Positions 3,049-12,322 of a stretch of 39,759 nucleotides of DNA are shown here, piece after piece. Source of the stretch: Candidatus Aminicenantota bacterium (lineage in GTDB: Bacteria; Acidobacteriota; Aminicenantia; S016-38); the NCBI GenBank assembly GCA_027025175.1, contig JALVRF010000023.1:10556-50314 (forward strand). Direction: 5' to 3'. Both the position numbers and the translations under genes were made by a program. The first letter of the stretch is position 1, and the number at the start of each line of letters is the position of its first letter. The notes beneath the pieces were generated by a model. The model ran no database searches. It was not told the origin of the DNA and worked only from the letters and a program-made list of their open reading frames with translations.

Positions 3049-3773
3049 TAGAAGTAGAGGACCTGAAGAAATTCTTCGGAGAAAACAGGGTTCTTAACGG
3101 AGTGAATCTGAAGATAAGGGAGGGGGAAATTTACATTGTCCTGGGAAGGAGCGGGGCAGGAAAGAGCGTCCTTCTTAAAAACATTGTGGGGCTAATGAGG
3201 CCCGATGCAGGCCGAATACTCTACAGGGGCAGAGACCTGGCAAAGGCAGGAGACGACGAGTGGAAAAGGGTAAGGAGGGATTTCGCCGTGGTTTTCCAGC
3301 ACTCTGCCCTTTTTGATTCCCTGAACGTGGGGGAAAATGTGGCCTTTGGCCTGAGGAGGATGACCAAATTAGGGGAGGAAGAAATAAGAAAGGCAGTCAG
3401 AGAATCCCTGGCCCTGGTAGGACTCAGTGGTATCGAAAACCTCAGGGTTTCCCAGTTGAGCGGGGGCATGAGGAAGAGGGTGGCCATAGCCAGGGCCATT
3501 GCAGTCAGGCCCAGGGTAATATTCTACGATGAACCCACCACAGGGCTTGATCCCATAATGTCTGCAAACATTGAACAGTTAATTCTAAGGATGAACAGGA
3601 AACTGGGCTCAACCACCTTCATAATAACCCACGACCTCAAACTGGCCTTCAGCGTGGGCAATACCCTCTCCATGCTGCATGATGGTAAAATTATTTTAGA
3701 GGCCGGGGTGGAAGAATTCAGAGAGTCCACCCATCCCGTGGTCAGAAAATTCGTGGAGGGAATACCCGATTGA
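3012..3773 (+). CDS. mlaF: MlaF-type ABC transporter ATP-binding protein
   Basis: Cytoplasmic ATPase of the MCE lipid transporter, 253 aa. Motifs seen are Walker A GRSGAGKSVL, Q-loop VFQHSALFDS, signature LSGGMRKRVAIARA, Walker B VIFYDEPTTGLDP and the H-loop IITHDL. The LSGGM form of the signature and the FQHSALFDSL Q-loop are typical of MlaF/Ttg2A. The overlap with mlaE is 37 nt if ATG 3012 is used. An in-frame ATG at 3030, preceded by GGGGA, would cut the overlap to 19 nt and is equally plausible. The stop overlaps the TTG start of mlaD (TTGA). Confidence 0.94.
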   Translation: MGKNTSMDSEILIEVEDLKKFFGENRVLNGVNLKIREGEIYIVLGRSGAGKSVLLKNIVGLMRPDAGRILYRGRDLAKAGDDEWKRVRRDFAVVFQHSALFDSLNVGENVAFGLRRMTKLGEEEIRKAVRESLALVGLSGIENLRVSQLSGGMRKRVAIARAIAVRPRVIFYDEPTTGLDPIMSANIEQLILRMNRKLGSTTFIITHDLKLAFSVGNTLSMLHDGKIILEAGVEEFRESTHPVVRKFVEGIPD

Positions 3774-5023
3774 AAACGGAAACCAAGATAGGCCTTTTGC
3801 TCCTGGCAGCCTTAGGGGTGCTTTTATATTTCCTGGTAAAAATGGGGAATTTATCCTCCCTTTTTGAACCCAGGGGATACGAAATCACCGCCTACTTCCA
3901 GAGCATAGCCGGACTGGAAGAGAGGGCGCCGGTTCGCCTTGCCGGGGTAAAAATAGGTTATGTGGAGAAAATAAAACTTGACCGGGGAAAGGCTCTGGTG
4001 GTCATGAAAATTTACCAGTCCTATAAAATAAGGAAGGGTTCCAGGGCTGCGGTCACTTCCATGGGAATAATGGGGGAGAAGTACATAGAGATTTTTCCAG
4101 GTGAAGGATCGGATTTTTTGAAGCCCGGTGAGAGAATAGAGGGAATACCACCCCTTTCCATAGACCAACTGGGAGCCATGTTCTATTCCATAGCCCAGGA
4201 TGTGAAGAAAATGAGCAGAACCTTCAGCGAGGTTATAGGTGGGGAGAAGGGAAGAGCCAGTCTCAACACCATTCTCCAGAACCTGGACAGAATAACCACG
4301 GAACTGGATAGAATGCTCAGGCTCAACCAGGGAAACATAACCGCAGCCTCCAGGGAACTGATAGATGCCCTGAAGGAAATGAAACAGGCCGTCATAGAAT
4401 TTTCCTCAGCATCCAGACAGGTGGCCTCACTTTCTTCCTCCCTCAATTCCAGGACGGAAAAATTTGACCTGGCCCTGGATCAGATGACCAAGGCAGCCCG
4501 GAGAATTTCAGACCTTGCCAGAAAGATTGAAGGAGAACTGGAGGTAATTGACAGGGGCTCATTGGGCCAGACCTTAAGGGACAGGAAAATTTACGAAAAA
4601 ACCAGGGAAATCCTGGATGGAACTTCAGAGGTAGTAGACAAAATAAACAATAAAATCTCCCTATCCCTATCACCCTACCTTTTTTACTCCTCTGAGGGAA
4701 CGGGAAAGGCCGGGATAAAGATTATCCACGGAAATTCCTGGCTCTCAGCCGGGGTGGTTAATAACGGGGAGGAAACTTCCTATGACCTTCTTTTCGGACG
4801 AACCCTTGGCCCCCTTTCACTTTCAGCAGGAATGATTGAGGGAGGCTTCGGCCTGCGGGGAATCCTCCGTTCCGGGAAGGGAGTTTTCCTGGGGGCAGAG
4901 GCGTTCAGGCCCAATACCTGGAACTACCGCCTGCTCTTCGGTCTGGAGAAAAAGGGTCTTCTTTTCTTCGGTGGTTACGGAAGCCGAAAATCCCTCATTT
5001 TCGGCATAGCCTACGGCTATTAA
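3770..5023 (+). CDS. mlaD: MlaD-like MCE-domain protein with barrel-like C-terminal extension
   Basis: Periplasmic substrate-binding component of the MCE transporter. TTG start overlaps the mlaF stop. There is an N-terminal membrane anchor (about residues 7-24), one MCE domain (about 37-115, containing APVRLAGVKIG), and a helical/coiled-coil stretch (about 130-285) rich in regularly spaced hydrophobics. The last ~115 residues differ from ordinary MlaD: they alternate polar and aromatic/hydrophobic residues with Gly turns (for example YRLLFGLEKKGLLFFGGYGS) and end in IAYGY, which resembles outer-membrane beta-strands with a terminal aromatic. At 417 aa it is far longer than E. coli MlaD (about 180 aa). 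Transporter role is secure; the nature of the C-terminus is inferred from pattern only. Confidence 0.9.
   Translation: MKTETKIGLLLLAALGVLLYFLVKMGNLSSLFEPRGYEITAYFQSIAGLEERAPVRLAGVKIGYVEKIKLDRGKALVVMKIYQSYKIRKGSRAAVTSMGIMGEKYIEIFPGEGSDFLKPGERIEGIPPLSIDQLGAMFYSIAQDVKKMSRTFSEVIGGEKGRASLNTILQNLDRITTELDRMLRLNQGNITAASRELIDALKEMKQAVIEFSSASRQVASLSSSLNSRTEKFDLALDQMTKAARRISDLARKIEGELEVIDRGSLGQTLRDRKIYEKTREILDGTSEVVDKINNKISLSLSPYLFYSSEGTGKAGIKIIHGNSWLSAGVVNNGEETSYDLLFGRTLGPLSLSAGMIEGGFGLRGILRSGKGVFLGAEAFRPNTWNYRLLFGLEKKGLLFFGGYGSRKSLIFGIAYGY
4983..5020. terminator. Tandem perfect hairpins at a convergent gene junction
   Basis: Two adjacent inverted repeats lie in the last codons of mlaD. The first is GCCGAAAA-tccctca-TTTTCGGC (8-bp perfect stem, 4983-5005). 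The second is ATAGCC-tac-GGCTAT (6-bp perfect stem, 5006-5020). mlaD and the opposing outer-membrane gene end only 2 nt apart, so a shared bidirectional terminator would have to be inside coding sequence. Neither side has a clear T-tract, so intrinsic termination is unproven. Confidence 0.45.
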
Positions 5024-5025
5024 AC

Positions 5026-6777
5026 TCAGCGCAGGAAAAATCCCAGAAACAGCCTCCAGCGGGGAAGACGAATAAGCCAGGTATCCTCACCGTTTATCTC
5101 CGCCTTCCAGAGGTGCTCCCTCAGGGAAAAACCCTCCCCCTGGAATATCACCCCTCCCCAGGAAAACTCCTTGGTAAGTCTGAATCCTCCCACCACATTC
5201 CATTCCCCGGCCAATGCTCCCACGGAAACATACTCCTTCCCCTGGGAAAGGCCCGAAATAAGAAGAAATCTACTCGTGCTGAAATTCCTGAAAATCAGGG
5301 AGAAAACCGAAACCTCCACATTGCCCACCCTTCCCCTGACTCCCAAAAATCCGCTCAAACCGTTGATGGAAGGGAGTTCTCCCTCAAGGGCAGAATTTTT
5401 CTCTGGCGACCAGTTGCCGTCCTTCAGGAATGAGGAGGAATACAGGAAGAATTCTCCAGGCTTTAACGAAAGGGGAAGGAAAGGATAGGTTCCCTTGGTG
5501 TAAAAATAGGATGCTCTGAGAAGAAATTTAAAATTACCCCACTTTAAAAGGGCACCAGCATAGGCTGTGGCCATCTGCCTCCACAGGGAGGAAAAATTGC
5601 TGTATTCCAGGGAATTAAGACCCTGACAGTTCCACACCGTGTATTCTTGCCCGTTGAATGTTGCAGTTAAGGAAGTCTGTTTATCACAGATTCCCTTATC
5701 CTCCGCAAGTCTCCAGTCCATCACGAAATAGGCACCGGCGAAAAGGCCCCGGGGGTTTCCTGCCAATAGTCCTATTTTCAACCTGGGAAAAGGGCGAGGA
5801 ATACCGTTCCAGACCGGAGGTTCAATGTTCCCGTCCCTGCTCCAATCCTCCCCATCCCATGTATAAAGAAAAGTTTCCCCACCGCCCCTTGCCAGACCCC
5901 TCAGGTATTCCACTGGAGGGACGACGCCACTGAAGGAGAAAAAGGCGGAAATACTCTTTCTTAAAGAAAAATTCACCTCAGGGAAAACCCAGGGTTTCCC
6001 TTCAAGAATTCCACCCCGGGTTCCCAGAAAAACATCAAAATCACCCCTTCTTCTTACCCCGAGCCTCACCTGAAGGGACCAGGGGAAATAATGGGAATTC
6101 CCAGTTTCTATTTTCAAAAATGGTTCGTCTCCCAGGTAAAATTCCCTTACTCTGCCGTCTTCCCTTCCATAGAAAACCTCGCCCCTGCCTCCTGCCTCCC
6201 ATTCCCACTGGCCTATTAAACTTCCCTCCTTCTCGCCCCAGAGGACCCATTTCACTCCGAAAAACCCGCCGGTTCCCTCTGCCCTGAACCACTGTAAAAA
6301 TCCCCCCCACTTTTCCCCTGAAACCGAAAGGGTGAACCAGTCCTCCCATCTTCCGGTAAAATCCCCCTTTCTTCTCCCCACATCCCAGAAAATCAGTCTC
6401 TTATTCTCCCTGAAACCCATAATCCTGATCTTCCTTCCCCCTTCAAGGGAAAGGGTTCTGAACAAAATCCCATTCCTGTCCCCCATCCATCTTATGGCGA
6501 GGTCCCCGCGGCTTCCTATTAAAACTTCCTTCCTTTCCCTGGTGAGGTTCCAGTAATTTCCCTGAACATCCCTTCTATAGGGAGACGGGAAAAACAGCGG
6601 ATTTATGTGAAAAAGAGGATAGGGAACCCATCGGCCGTTAATGTAAAATCCCCCCTGAGCGGTCTCAGGGTAAAAAAGCAAAGGACTGGTTTCCGCAAAG
6701 GGATAGCGAAAAACAAAGTCAAGGGTTCCGGCTCCCACATAAAAACTGAGAAGAAGGGATAGAAATTTTAGGCCCAT
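5026..6777 (-). CDS. Predicted outer-membrane beta-barrel protein, Trp/aromatic-rich, unknown function
   Basis: I do not recognise a family. The 583-aa product begins with a short hydrophobic signal-like segment (MGLKFLSLLLSFYVGAGTL). It continues with many short alternating hydrophobic/polar stretches separated by Gly, charged and Asn-rich turns, with very high Trp, Phe and Tyr content. The C-terminus (RWRLFLGFFLR) is strand-like, although the last residue is Arg rather than an aromatic. No TonB box or plug domain is evident. Its start overlaps the end of comM by 10 nt, so it is the last gene of the GTPase-transglycosylase-comM operon. It converges on mlaD with 2 nt between the stops. An outer-membrane barrel is the best inference; the substrate is unknown. 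Confidence 0.75.
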   Translation of the reverse strand: MGLKFLSLLLSFYVGAGTLDFVFRYPFAETSPLLFYPETAQGGFYINGRWVPYPLFHINPLFFPSPYRRDVQGNYWNLTRERKEVLIGSRGDLAIRWMGDRNGILFRTLSLEGGRKIRIMGFRENKRLIFWDVGRRKGDFTGRWEDWFTLSVSGEKWGGFLQWFRAEGTGGFFGVKWVLWGEKEGSLIGQWEWEAGGRGEVFYGREDGRVREFYLGDEPFLKIETGNSHYFPWSLQVRLGVRRRGDFDVFLGTRGGILEGKPWVFPEVNFSLRKSISAFFSFSGVVPPVEYLRGLARGGGETFLYTWDGEDWSRDGNIEPPVWNGIPRPFPRLKIGLLAGNPRGLFAGAYFVMDWRLAEDKGICDKQTSLTATFNGQEYTVWNCQGLNSLEYSNFSSLWRQMATAYAGALLKWGNFKFLLRASYFYTKGTYPFLPLSLKPGEFFLYSSSFLKDGNWSPEKNSALEGELPSINGLSGFLGVRGRVGNVEVSVFSLIFRNFSTSRFLLISGLSQGKEYVSVGALAGEWNVVGGFRLTKEFSWGGVIFQGEGFSLREHLWKAEINGEDTWLIRLPRWRLFLGFFLR

Positions 6778-8264
6778 ATTACCCTCTCTATTCTTCTATA
6801 GTTTACCGCTTCCATAAGATGGGAGGTGGAGATTTCCTCCTTCCCTTCCAGGTCAGCGATGGTCCTTGCCAATTTGAGGGTCCTGGTAAGGGAGCGGGCG
6901 GAAAAACCCAGCATTTCTCCGGCACTTTTCAAAAATTCTTCGCCTTCAGGGGAAATCCTGCAGTACTTCTTTATTTCCTTTGGCCCCATCCTGGAGTTAA
7001 GCATACCCTCCCTGCCAAACCTTTCTCGCTGAATTTCCCTGGCCCGGATCACCCTCTCCCTCATGGGCGCTGATTCTCCGGGAAAATTTCCCTTCCTCAG
7101 AAGATCCTTTATCTCCACCCTGGGAACTTCAATCCACATGTCAATCCTGTCCACTAAGGGCTTTGATATTTTGGAATAATACTTCTTCCTTTCCGCAGGG
7201 CTGCACTCGTAATTTTCAATTCCACCATACCTGTCCTCGCACCGGTTCATGGCCGCCACCAGCATAAAATCCGCGGGAAACTCCACAGTATATCCTGCCC
7301 TGGTTATTGTTACCCTGCCTTCCTCCAGGGGTTGACGGAGTCCTTCCAGGGCCTGTTTCTGGAATTCGGTAAACTCGTCCATAAAAAGAACCCCCCTGTG
7401 GGCCAGGGAAATTTCCCCTGGCCTGGGATACCGCCCACCTCCTATGAGCCCCACTGGAGATATGTTATGGTGGGGAGCCCGGAAAGGTCTTGTGGTTATG
7501 TAATTTTTCTTTACAAGCCCCGCTACGCTGTAAATCTTGGTAACTTCCTCTATTTCCCTCCTATTCATGGGAGGGAAAATGGTGGGAAGCCTCCGGGAGA
7601 GCATGGTCTTTCCTGCCCCTGGAGGACCCACCATGGCCATGTTATGCCCTCCGGCCACGGCTATTTCCATGGCCCTCTTGGCCAGTCGCTGTCCCACCAC
7701 TTCCCCGAAGTCCACCTGGTAATCCTGCACCATCTCCCTTTCTTCCTCCTGAGCCCTTTCAAAATCCCCACCCTGAAGATAAAGGATGATGTCCTGAACC
7801 CTGTTGACCTTATATACGGAAATTCCCCTGATCAGGGCCGCCTCCTCAGCATTTGCTTCTGGAAGAACAATTCCATCCAGACCGGCCCTTCGGGCTATAT
7901 CCGCCATGGGAAGGGCTCCCCTTATGGGTTTTATTTCGCCGAAAAGGCCCACTTCCCCGGCAAAGAGGAGTTTTTCTCTGAAGGGCTTTCCCAGGAAACG
8001 GGAGAGAAGGACGGATATTATGGGCAGGTCAAACCAGGCGCCTTCCTTTCGCAGGTCCGCCGGAGATAGACTAACGGTTATCCTCCGGGCCGGAAGAGGA
8101 TGGCCTATGTTCTTCAGGGCTGCCCTGATTCTCTCACTGCTTTCCTTAATGGAGGTATCAGCAAGGCCTATTATTTTGAAATCCGGAAGTCCCCCTGAAA
8201 GGTCAGCCTCCACCTCCACCAGAAACCCGTCAATTCCCATAAGGGAGGCTGCATAAACCTTCAT
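6768..8264 (-). CDS. comM: ComM/YifB family AAA+ ATPase (Mg-chelatase-like)
   Basis: AAA+ helicase family; characterised ComM promotes branch migration during integration of transforming DNA. The product is 498 aa from the ATG at 8264, which overlaps the upstream stop as ATGA. The ORF-track start at 8321 lies inside the upstream gene and adds non-conserved residues. Order seen: the N-terminal ChlI-like fold beginning MKVYAASLMGIDGF, with LPDFKIIGLADTSIKES and the SLSPADLRKEG motif; Walker A GPPGAGKTML; Walker B GVLFMDEFTEF; sensor VAAMNRC; and a C-terminal helical lid with FSARSLTRTLKLART. The gene is coupled to a LysM transglycosylase upstream and an outer-membrane-like protein downstream. 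Family assignment is firm; a role in transformation here is inferred. Confidence 0.93.
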   Translation of the reverse strand: MKVYAASLMGIDGFLVEVEADLSGGLPDFKIIGLADTSIKESSERIRAALKNIGHPLPARRITVSLSPADLRKEGAWFDLPIISVLLSRFLGKPFREKLLFAGEVGLFGEIKPIRGALPMADIARRAGLDGIVLPEANAEEAALIRGISVYKVNRVQDIILYLQGGDFERAQEEEREMVQDYQVDFGEVVGQRLAKRAMEIAVAGGHNMAMVGPPGAGKTMLSRRLPTIFPPMNRREIEEVTKIYSVAGLVKKNYITTRPFRAPHHNISPVGLIGGGRYPRPGEISLAHRGVLFMDEFTEFQKQALEGLRQPLEEGRVTITRAGYTVEFPADFMLVAAMNRCEDRYGGIENYECSPAERKKYYSKISKPLVDRIDMWIEVPRVEIKDLLRKGNFPGESAPMRERVIRAREIQRERFGREGMLNSRMGPKEIKKYCRISPEGEEFLKSAGEMLGFSARSLTRTLKLARTIADLEGKEEISTSHLMEAVNYRRIERVIWA

Positions 8265-9634
8265 CGGTAAATTATGAGTTTCTGTCCGGGCCTTATCAAA
8301 TTCCTTCTCAGCCTGTTCCACCTCTTAAGCCTGCGAACGCTCACGCCGAAACGCCGGGAGATACCATAAAGGGTATCCCCCCGCCTGACCGTGTAAATAA
8401 TTGCTCCCTTTTTCTTTGCCCTGGCAAGTCTCCCTCTGTAACTTGAACCCCTTCTATGTTTTTTCCTGGGGTAAGCATAACTTAAAGGAATGAGGAGCCT
8501 GCGGCCTGGACGGAGTCTGGTGCTTCTCATGTTGTTGGCCTGCATAATGGCGCTTATGGATACGCCGAATTTCCTGGAAATCCTGTAAAGGGAATCCCCC
8601 CTCCTTACCCTGTACCATGTCCATTTAAGCCTCTCCCTTGAGGAAATCTTTGAGAACTCGGATAGAAATCTCTCCTTTGTTCCCTCAGGAAGCCTCACCC
8701 TGTATTTCTTCAGATTTCCCGGAGTCGTAAACCTCAAGATGTGGGGGTTATATTGCCTTATGGTGGAATAACTCACTCCCGCGCAACGGGCAATCACCCG
8801 CAGGTCCGTAGGAGAAGGCACTTCCACCTCATCATAGGTGAAGGGAGGAAGAGGGGTGAAGTTTATCCCGTAATCCGAGGGATTGGTAGCAATTATTACC
8901 GTGGCCATAAAAGCGGGCACATAATTGGCCGTTTGCCTTTTGAGGTATCTTTTAATCTTCCAGAAGTTCCTGCTGCCGGACCTGCGTATGGCCCTCTCCA
9001 CCCTCCTCTCTCCCCCGTTATAGGCTGCCAGGGCCAGGTTCCAGTCTCCGAACCTGTCGTAAAGGTCACGAAGATAGCGGGCCGCGGCATAGGTAGACCT
9101 TATGGGATCAAGCCTTTCGTCCACCCACCAATTCACACTCAAACCGTAAAGTCTTGCAGTGGACCTCATAAATTGCCATATACCCTTGGCCCACATCCAG
9201 CTTCTTGCCTTCTCCCTGTAGCCACTTTCAATTATGGGAAGATATGCTATTTCCCTGGGGATTCCGTATTGTTTTAAAACGCCGCGAATAAAATCAATGT
9301 ATCTTCCTGATCGGGTCAGGGATTCTTCCATGAATTTCTTATATTTTGTGGTATAGGCAAATATATATCTTTTTACCAGGTCGTTTACTTCAATGGGATA
9401 TTCATATTTTACGCCCTCCTGCTTGATCTTCTTCTCAAGAGCCGTCGCCTGAGCCGGGGTTATACGGGGAACCTGCTGAGGGACGGTAGGAGAAAAGTCT
9501 TCGGGTAAAACCGCTGGTTCCGGAAGGTCCTCCACTTCCAGCAAAACCTCAGGGGTGGTTCTTGCCTCCTTTCTGCCACAGAAGGATAATAAAACAACTC
9601 CCAGGATGACAAACAGAAATATTTTTTTATTCAC
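8261..9634 (-). CDS. MltD-like lytic transglycosylase lipoprotein with two LysM domains
   Basis: Cleaves peptidoglycan glycan strands non-hydrolytically. The N-terminus MNKKIFLFVILGVVLLSFCG is a lipoprotein-like signal with Cys19, though Phe at -1 is unusual. The SLT (family 1) domain spans roughly residues 115-235, with the catalytic Glu136 in PIIESGYREKA and the later AYNGGERRV motif. LysM repeats follow at about 341-388 (YRVRRGDSLYRISRKFGVS) and at the extreme C-terminus (YTVRRGDTLYGISRRFGVS), joined by a very basic linker. E. coli MltD has a similar architecture. The start overlaps the GTPase gene (ATGA) and the stop overlaps the comM start (ATGA), so it is tightly coupled to both. Confidence 0.93.
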   Translation of the reverse strand: MNKKIFLFVILGVVLLSFCGRKEARTTPEVLLEVEDLPEPAVLPEDFSPTVPQQVPRITPAQATALEKKIKQEGVKYEYPIEVNDLVKRYIFAYTTKYKKFMEESLTRSGRYIDFIRGVLKQYGIPREIAYLPIIESGYREKARSWMWAKGIWQFMRSTARLYGLSVNWWVDERLDPIRSTYAAARYLRDLYDRFGDWNLALAAYNGGERRVERAIRRSGSRNFWKIKRYLKRQTANYVPAFMATVIIATNPSDYGINFTPLPPFTYDEVEVPSPTDLRVIARCAGVSYSTIRQYNPHILRFTTPGNLKKYRVRLPEGTKERFLSEFSKISSRERLKWTWYRVRRGDSLYRISRKFGVSISAIMQANNMRSTRLRPGRRLLIPLSYAYPRKKHRRGSSYRGRLARAKKKGAIIYTVRRGDTLYGISRRFGVSVRRLKRWNRLRRNLIRPGQKLIIYR

Positions 9635-10833
9635 TTGCCGATGATTTTAAGTAAAAGTTTCAAGTTCAGTATATCAAATCCCTTATCTTTAAGAGGAATT
9701 TTAAATTTCCCTTCCTCTTCTCCACCATCTAATCTCAAAACGATCTCCAGATAACTGGATCTGTCAATTTTCTCTATGGGAATGTCAAATTCCTCCTCCC
9801 TTTTTATGGTTTTTTCCCTTTTAATAACCTCCTTAAAAACCTCGTGGAGTTCCCTTCTCTCCAGACGGCCTATTTTCTTAGGGGTAACCCTGGTCTCCCC
9901 GAGAATGGATTTGACCAGTTCGTCGAGTTGTTCTCCAGCCTCCTCCCTGGAGACCTTTATTTTTCTGAAATAAACCCTTTCCGATGGAGTCTTCTCCTCC
10001 TCTACCGCGAATTTCACCTCTACTTCCTCATCCTCATCCCTGGCATTGCCTTCCTCTGTTTTTTTTTCGGCCTTTTCCTCTTCCATCCTGGATGGCATAA
10101 TCACCACAGTGTTCTCCTCTATTTCTTTTTCCTCTTCCTCCTCTAATTTCTCCTCCACCTCATCCAGGGAAGCCCTGGAGGTTTTTTCTTCCTCTGCTCT
10201 CGTGCCGATTTTAGCGGCAAGTTCTTCCTCCTTTTCCTCATGAATTTCCAGGGTCCTCGCTATCTTGGCAAGGGTAAATTTTGATATACCCTTCAGTGTT
10301 TCAAAAACTCCTATTCCCCTGATGGCTATGGCCTCGTAATAGGGAACCCCCAATTTATTCAGGCGTTTCTGAAGTTCCTCAATGGGAAGAATATTCGGCA
10401 AATCCCTTTTGTTGTACTGAATAACCATGGGTATATCCTCAAGTTTTATGTTGTAAAAGGCCAGGTTCTCGGCGAGGTTCTCCATGCTTTCAAGATTTGA
10501 ATCCAGAATTGCCTTCTGGGAATCCGCCACGAATACGATTCCATCAACCCCCTTTAAAACTAACTTTCTCGTTTCGTTGTAATGAACCTGTCCCGGAACC
10601 GTGTATAGTTGGAACCTGACCCTGTAGTCCTTGAGGGTTCCCACTTCCATGGGAAGAAGGTCAAAAAACAGGGTTCTGTCTGCCCCTGTCTCCAGACTTA
10701 TAAGTTCTCCCCTGACCTTTGGGTGAGTTTTTCTGTAAATTACCTGAAGATTTGTGGTTTTTCCGCTGAGCCCTGGTCCGTAATAAACAATCTTCGCAGC
10801 CAATTGTTTGCTGGCGTAGTTGAAGAAAACCAT
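9631..10833 (-). CDS. MglA-like small GTPase with acidic linker and extra C-terminal domain
   Basis: Residues 1-195 are an MglA-type Ras-like GTPase: P-loop GPGLSGKTTN (19-28), the MglA-type switch II TVPGQVHY (78-85), and the base-specificity motif NKRD (141-144). MglA proteins set cell polarity and control motility or type IV pili in Myxococcus and Thermus. Ordinary MglA is about 195 aa; this product is 400 aa. Residues ~198-285 are a glutamate-rich, probably disordered or coiled linker, and ~290-400 form a separate charged domain I do not recognise, ending DILNLKLLLKIIGK. It heads the operon with a lytic transglycosylase, comM and an outer-membrane protein. A consensus promoter abuts the start codon, predicting a leaderless mRNA. 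Confidence 0.88.
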   Translation of the reverse strand: MVFFNYASKQLAAKIVYYGPGLSGKTTNLQVIYRKTHPKVRGELISLETGADRTLFFDLLPMEVGTLKDYRVRFQLYTVPGQVHYNETRKLVLKGVDGIVFVADSQKAILDSNLESMENLAENLAFYNIKLEDIPMVIQYNKRDLPNILPIEELQKRLNKLGVPYYEAIAIRGIGVFETLKGISKFTLAKIARTLEIHEEKEEELAAKIGTRAEEEKTSRASLDEVEEKLEEEEEKEIEENTVVIMPSRMEEEKAEKKTEEGNARDEDEEVEVKFAVEEEKTPSERVYFRKIKVSREEAGEQLDELVKSILGETRVTPKKIGRLERRELHEVFKEVIKREKTIKREEEFDIPIEKIDRSSYLEIVLRLDGGEEEGKFKIPLKDKGFDILNLKLLLKIIGK

Positions 10834-10839
10834 ACTCTT

Positions 10840-10867
10840 ATTTTAGCACTACCTCGTTGATTTTCAA
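10840..10867 (-). promoter_or_regulatory. Promoter of the GTPase-led operon (leaderless arrangement)
   Basis: Reading the minus strand, TTGAAA (10862-10867) and TAAAAT (10840-10845) are separated by 16 bp. The -10 box ends 6 nt before the ATG at 10833, which would place the transcription start at or next to the start codon. No Shine-Dalgarno sequence lies at the proper distance. Confidence 0.65.
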
Positions 10868-10878
10868 GAAAGAGGGCT

Positions 10879-10901
10879 ATAGGGGGGCAATGCCCCCCTA
10901 T
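10879..10901 (-). terminator. Strong hairpin after glutamate dehydrogenase gene
   Basis: ATAGGGGGGC-aat-GCCCCCCTAT is a perfect 10-bp stem with a 3-nt loop, just 6-28 nt beyond the gdhA stop on the minus strand. The downstream tract (agccctctttctt) is pyrimidine-rich but lacks a clean run of T. It is the most stable hairpin I saw in the window and separates gdhA from the next operon. Confidence 0.7.
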
Positions 10902-10906
10902 TTATA

Positions 10907-12322
<1,416 letters not shown>

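Follow-up and report, generated by a model that had tools for sequence, protein, structure and literature searches.

A GTPase-ComM gene neighbourhood conserved across Aminicenantes and its possible link to DNA acquisition

Introduction

Do an MglA-type GTPase, a lytic transglycosylase, the AAA+ ATPase ComM and an orphan barrel-like protein, encoded one after another in the 1.78-Mb genome of an Aminicenantes bacterium (Acidobacteriota), take part in a common process? Type IV pilus (T4P) formation or location is under MglA control in Myxococcus, Bdellovibrio and Thermus, and in Bdellovibrio T4P formation requires MglA (PMC7519303); a Thermus thermophilus study tying MglA/MglB to natural competence is cited by title in the same article. 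ComM acts in strand integration (PMC11612176). The original prediction, made from the 39,759-nucleotide stretch of DNA analysed here (hereafter the window), read the four genes as a polar envelope-crossing module in which the GTPase positions the assembly, the transglycosylase opens the wall, the outer-membrane protein forms the entry or exit and ComM processes incoming DNA.

Results

Layout of the operon

The row runs along the minus strand from window position 10833 to 5026 in the order MglA-type GTPase, SLT-LysM transglycosylase, ComM and orphan beta-barrel protein, with consecutive overlaps of 4, 4 and 10 nt (Table 1). All open reading frames lie where the original prediction placed them, and its gene identities were reproduced. 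An alternative ComM start at GTG 8321 was rejected as an artefact of the longest-ORF rule, the start in relatives matching ATG 8264. The same gene order, with neighbours overlapping or only a few nucleotides apart, is seen again in other families, which argues that the overlaps are not due to chance. The proposal of one promoter likewise holds: the sigma-70-type element sits at the same place in each of the seven members of the family that were examined (the window and L039-L044), and its -10 hexamer ends 6 nt ahead of the GTPase ATG. Given this short gap and the retention of the promoter, the operon mRNA is probably leaderless, beginning at or next to the GTPase start codon. Upstream lies gdhA, which ends at 10907. 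As judged from sequence, the four genes share one promoter as an operon.

Table 1. Features of the locus in the window and the gene row of Zixiibacteriota/Ignavibacterium
Feature	Coordinates	Strand	Remarks
MglA-type (Group 1) small GTPase	9631..10833	-	400 aa; ATG start
SLT-LysM-LysM lytic transglycosylase, probable lipoprotein	8261..9634	-	457 aa; GTG start; 4-nt GTGA overlap with GTPase stop
ComM/YifB AAA+ ATPase	6768..8264	-	498 aa; ATG start; 4-nt ATGA overlap with SLT stop
Orphan signal-peptide-like protein, predicted outer-membrane beta-barrel	5026..6777	-	583 aa; ATG start; 10-nt overlap with ComM
Sigma-70-type promoter TTGAAA-16-TAAAAT, TG before -10	10840..10867	-	position-aligned upstream of GTPase in seven family members
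G/C hairpin, probable gdhA terminator, between gdhA and operon	10882..10899		relatives carry a similar hairpin at this site
comEC...mglA...pilC row	L108:3709-15874	one strand	Zixiibacteriota/Ignavibacterium; also L070, L099, L106, L111, L112

An orphan MglA with a long tail

Residues 1-193 of the GTPase align to the solved MglA 6h17 (E 2e-70) and constitute the G domain, which is followed by an acidic low-complexity linker (residues ~200-340) and a small predicted beta segment (~341-400). The full-length AlphaFold model, with a mean pLDDT of 45, served as no more than a hint; it suggests a Ras-like fold, then a linker without order and, at the C-terminus, a short beta segment. R53-T54, T78-Q82 (TVPGQ) and N141-K142-R143-D144 (NKRD) are invariant in the alignment, V79 nearly so, and the protein carries the motif set by which Group 1 MglA is defined (PMC4316618), namely the TVPGQ G3 motif, an intrinsic Arg beside the G2 Thr and NKxD. 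The G domain, R53, TVPGQ and NKRD are thus shared with the Group 1 MglA proteins of Myxococcus xanthus and T. thermophilus (PDB 6h17, 3t12), from which the Aminicenantes GTPase differs in being uncoupled from MglB, in having SLT and ComM genes as neighbours and in bearing the long acidic tail and small C-terminal beta segment: at 400 aa, with a tail of ~200 residues, it departs from the ~195-aa single-domain form of Group 1 MglA.

No Roadblock (MglB) gene is present at the GTPase locus or at the corresponding loci of relatives. Because the Group 1 listing includes orphan MglA members (PMC4316618), an MglB-less GTPase is an orphan rather than a non-member. Close parallels are the orphan MglA of Bdellovibrio bacteriovorus and SofG of M. 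xanthus, which also belong to Group 1, lack MglB coupling and are functionally important (PMC4316618), although a ComM/SLT neighbourhood is not reported for them; Group 1 neighbourhoods in general are reported to vary widely (PMC4316618). The long tail and the missing MglB, like the restriction of the barrel gene to one family described below, are features that the original prediction did not mention.

A canonical mglBA pair is located on another contig of the same genome, so that the ComM-linked paralog need not be the MglA that governs polarity. Roadblock proteins were not found in families f3, f6, f7, f8, f9 and f10, and one f4 genome has one; in these seven of the ten families, at most one genome encodes any Roadblock protein, which rules out MglB as a hidden partner in most of them. 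The ComM-linked GTPase is the sole MglA found in f3, f4 and f6-f10, except that the f3 genome carries a second copy and one f4 genome gives a weak, distant match. In these families, the GTPase must therefore either do without MglB or rely on a GAP that escaped recognition. A free Roadblock protein of 109 aa is encoded a few genes downstream of pilQ in the window's genome (L207:5999-6328, G000:C33), with similar matches in G001, G002 and G006, and is a possible partner of an orphan MglA. Two further variants were observed: a third MglA-like paralog in the genus (~350-360 aa; L046, on contig G000:C107 of the window's own genome, and L164 and L166), unlinked to MglB, SLT or ComM, and an MglA-type GTPase (L055:169-1479, G008) whose C-terminal extension resembles, by eye, a degenerate GGDEF domain.

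Transglycosylase, ComM and the barrel protein

The second protein is an SLT-type (family 1) lytic transglycosylase, with an SLT domain (PF01464, 2.7e-27, residues 124-227), two LysM matches (1.6e-35) and an IIESGY motif, the Glu of which we take to be the catalytic residue. Like murein transglycosylase D (MltD), it has SLT followed by LysM repeats and a lipoprotein-like N-terminal signal; unlike MltD, it is encoded in an operon with MglA, and its match to the MltD model (8.8e-60, 202 bits) lies under the NF008050 equivalog cut-off of 508. The enzyme is a probable lipoprotein: its lipobox is non-canonical in the window (LLSFC), while relative L043 has AAGC at this site and L048 has GGGC. A wall-cutting enzyme that serves a surface motility machine has been described in M. 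xanthus, where gliding needs the MltG-type transglycosylase AgmT (PMC11444678). However, AgmT belongs to the YceG/MltG family, is an inner-membrane protein and has no motility genes near it, and the remaining 13 lytic transglycosylases (LTGs) of M. xanthus are dispensable for gliding (PMC11444678).

ComM is present as a sole full-length copy in the window's genome. It scores 518 bits against TIGR00368 (cut-off 362), displays the expected order of Lon-like N-terminal domain, AAA+ Mg-chelatase core and Mg-chelatase C-terminal domain (PF13541, PF01078, PF13335), and is collinear with the solved Legionella pneumophila ComM 8rxd over residues 7-491 (E 8.6e-106), with intact Walker motifs. It differs from the ComM of L. 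pneumophila and Vibrio cholerae in the zinc finger embedded in the AAA+ domain, a segment whose resolution in the solved structures was too low for model building (PMC11612176): NRCEDRYGGIENYECS replaces NPCPCG...CxC, so that the C4 finger is down to two Cys. Across the class (the window and loci L047-L154), f1 and f4 have lost two of the Cys and many f5 members all four, whereas other Acidobacteriota ComMs keep the C4 motif. Competence-type activity is therefore not assured for the Aminicenantes proteins, and the loss offers a natural test of the role of the finger.

The fourth protein matches no Pfam or NCBIfam family, including any plug or TonB-box family among these profiles. Its barrel-like, low-confidence model (pTM 0.61) finds its best Foldseek matches among TonB-dependent receptors, with TM-scores of ~0.3-0.5. 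The gene occurs in all seven genomes of the window's family and in none of the 53 other genomes of the class, which places it outside the conserved unit and rules it out as a core component; it is a family-specific rider, probably added in the window's family, that the core would not need.

Conservation of the neighbourhood

The GTPase locus was examined in 44 genomes of the class, in four of which the contig ends before the next genes. In all 40 Aminicenantes genomes with a continuing contig, representing ten families, ComM lies downstream of the GTPase on the same strand; these genomes share descent, and 40/40 does not amount to 40 independent events. The transglycosylase gene is inserted between the two in f1, f2, f6 and most of f5; in families outside these four, ComM follows the GTPase directly, and SLT is missing from half of the Aminicenantes families. 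Conservation of all four genes, which the original prediction proposed as a check, is thus seen in part: the GTPase-ComM pair is class-wide and the transglycosylase spans four families, but the barrel gene is private to one. Adjacency by chance, unique to the window's genome, is ruled out by the class-wide recurrence, and the argument of the original prediction that such tight coupling is not accidental gains from a GTPase-(SLT)-ComM order that appears as an ancestral signature in Acidobacteriota.

Upstream of the GTPase, the representatives display at least seven unrelated contexts, including gdhA (f1), the gene for a large surface protein (f5 g6) and a set of three glycosyltransferase genes (f7, f8 and f10), one of which also occurs in f9. 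The GTPase-SLT-ComM trio recurs in other Acidobacteriota classes (L064/L198, L068, L073, L084 and L197), where SLT-ComM without the GTPase (L180, L189, L190) and GTPase-SLT with no ComM in the available flank (L072) are also found; for many other ComM genes of Acidobacteriota, both partners are missing from the vicinity. In a maximum-likelihood tree, 28 of 28 linked GTPases fall into one clade of 38 rows (support 99/98), the other ten of which are unlinked or at a contig edge; none of the 38 is MglB-coupled, and a larger FastTree phylogeny agrees with the clade (SH 95). Taken together, gene order and phylogeny indicate that the GTPase-ComM core, often with SLT in between, is inherited as a block across Aminicenantes. 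In the simplest account, the block probably dates from early Acidobacteriota and underwent partial losses later.

The literature searched, which took in few subscription journals, yielded no description of an mglA-comM or mglA-comEC operon, and the locus is apparently an undescribed conserved neighbourhood of known protein families. Its junction, kept in ten families and in other classes, suggests concretely which partners orphan MglA proteins might have.

Pilus and competence genes

The check for pilus and competence genes suggested by the original prediction was positive. The window's genome encodes PilB, PilT, PilC and PilQ, the gene for the last, the T4P secretin, being located away from the operon, as well as comEC, an HHH_3 protein of ComEA type and dprA, which is cut by a contig end. 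ComEC was detected in 55 of 60 class genomes and PilT in 12 of 12 tested. Hence, neither finding that the original prediction named as fatal to it was made: the grouping recurs in other genomes, and genes for pili and competence are there. In f5 g6, a pilT-like gene lies a few kb past ComM on the opposite strand. A defence function was also considered and dropped, with no relevant PADLOC match.

Separate evidence comes from Zixiibacteriota/Ignavibacterium genomes, in which a one-strand row reads comEC-DUF4388-...-Roadblock-mglA (long-tailed)-mglB-pilB-pilT-pilC (Table 1); as far as gene order can tell, long-tailed MglA GTPases here travel with DNA-uptake and pilus genes.

The GTPase itself has been lost in G049 and G059, both of which retain ComM, PilT and ComEC; neither pili nor competence thus strictly needs it. 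In G049, ComM now comes immediately after the glycosyltransferase gene that related families have in front of the GTPase. Loss of PilT or ComEC alongside the GTPase was not found, both being retained in all three GTPase-less genomes. ComM is encoded in two of these three, and none was found in the third, an assembly 86% complete.

Discussion

The best functional reading of the block, which we put forward tentatively and by analogy with characterised systems, is that it may co-produce parts of one surface-linked DNA-acquisition programme. The GTP-form GTPase would position or activate type IV pili, the role that MglA has in Myxococcus, Bdellovibrio and Thermus; the transglycosylase would trim peptidoglycan at the site where the envelope machine is built or anchored; and downstream, in the cytoplasm, ComM would extend the strand-exchanged region as imported single-stranded DNA recombines. 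Physical contact among the three proteins would not be required, since shared transcription and translational coupling could keep their amounts in step. The class-wide GTPase-ComM order, the single clade of linked GTPases, the pil and com genes and the Zixiibacteriota row point in this direction. Against it stand the loss of the GTPase in G049 and G059, the absence of SLT from half of the families, the erosion of the finger and the ComMs without partners. In the window's family, moreover, the separate mglBA pair could be the pilus regulator, and the transglycosylase precedent from Myxococcus is an MltG-like enzyme, the other 13 LTGs being dispensable for gliding. A functional link would connect polarity control by a small GTPase with DNA uptake, and the largely uncultured Aminicenantes would then be expected to be competent. 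A bolder version, which we consider doubtful, holds that an ancient MglB-free MglA lineage of Acidobacteriota is dedicated to DNA acquisition, acting as a Ras-like switch that couples pilus positioning and local wall opening to the recombination helicase ComM, with the tail as a docking segment; if true, a single transcript would encode the means by which a small GTPase controls natural transformation in space.

Alternatively, the genes may be kept side by side because all of them serve a single growth state, be it surface growth, envelope remodelling or recombination repair, with the GTPase acting in motility or polarity, the transglycosylase in general wall turnover and ComM in housekeeping recombination. 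Such co-expression without a shared machine fits the many relatives with a partnerless ComM, the individual dispensability of GTPase and SLT and the eroded zinc finger; yet the overlaps and the class-wide order are tighter than loose co-expression requires, and the Zixiibacteriota mglA-comEC-pil row points toward DNA uptake; we regard this explanation as somewhat unlikely. Vertical inheritance, which explains much of the 40/40 count given that genomes of one class are not independent, also invites the idea that GTPase and ComM have stayed neighbours since the Acidobacteriota ancestor with no functional link, transglycosylase and barrel being passengers. The two lineages that lost the GTPase with no effect seen on ComM agree with this, but the flanks were reshuffled many times over the same tree while the GTPase-ComM junction persisted, more than one family shows 4-nt overlaps and the block is retained in several classes; we therefore regard a frozen adjacency as unlikely. 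The trans-envelope DNA channel of the original prediction, in which the fourth protein would be the outer-membrane pore, draws on the overlap of its gene with ComM and on the predicted beta-barrel. This part of the prediction is not supported, and we judge it highly improbable: none of the 53 class relatives beyond the family has the barrel, and most of them share the GTPase-ComM core; the genome already encodes PilQ elsewhere, and the closest folds, in a weak model, are TonB-dependent receptor barrels.

Other features of the window

Convergent with the barrel gene, and 2 nt apart from it, is a gene for an MlaD/MCE protein with a beta-strand-like C-terminal extension (window 3770-5023); the two genes are unlinked in L042. 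Close to the window's start, a segment of a replicative-helicase-like gene appears again across a short N stretch (L038:9864-11788, G000:C23), a probable scaffolding artefact.
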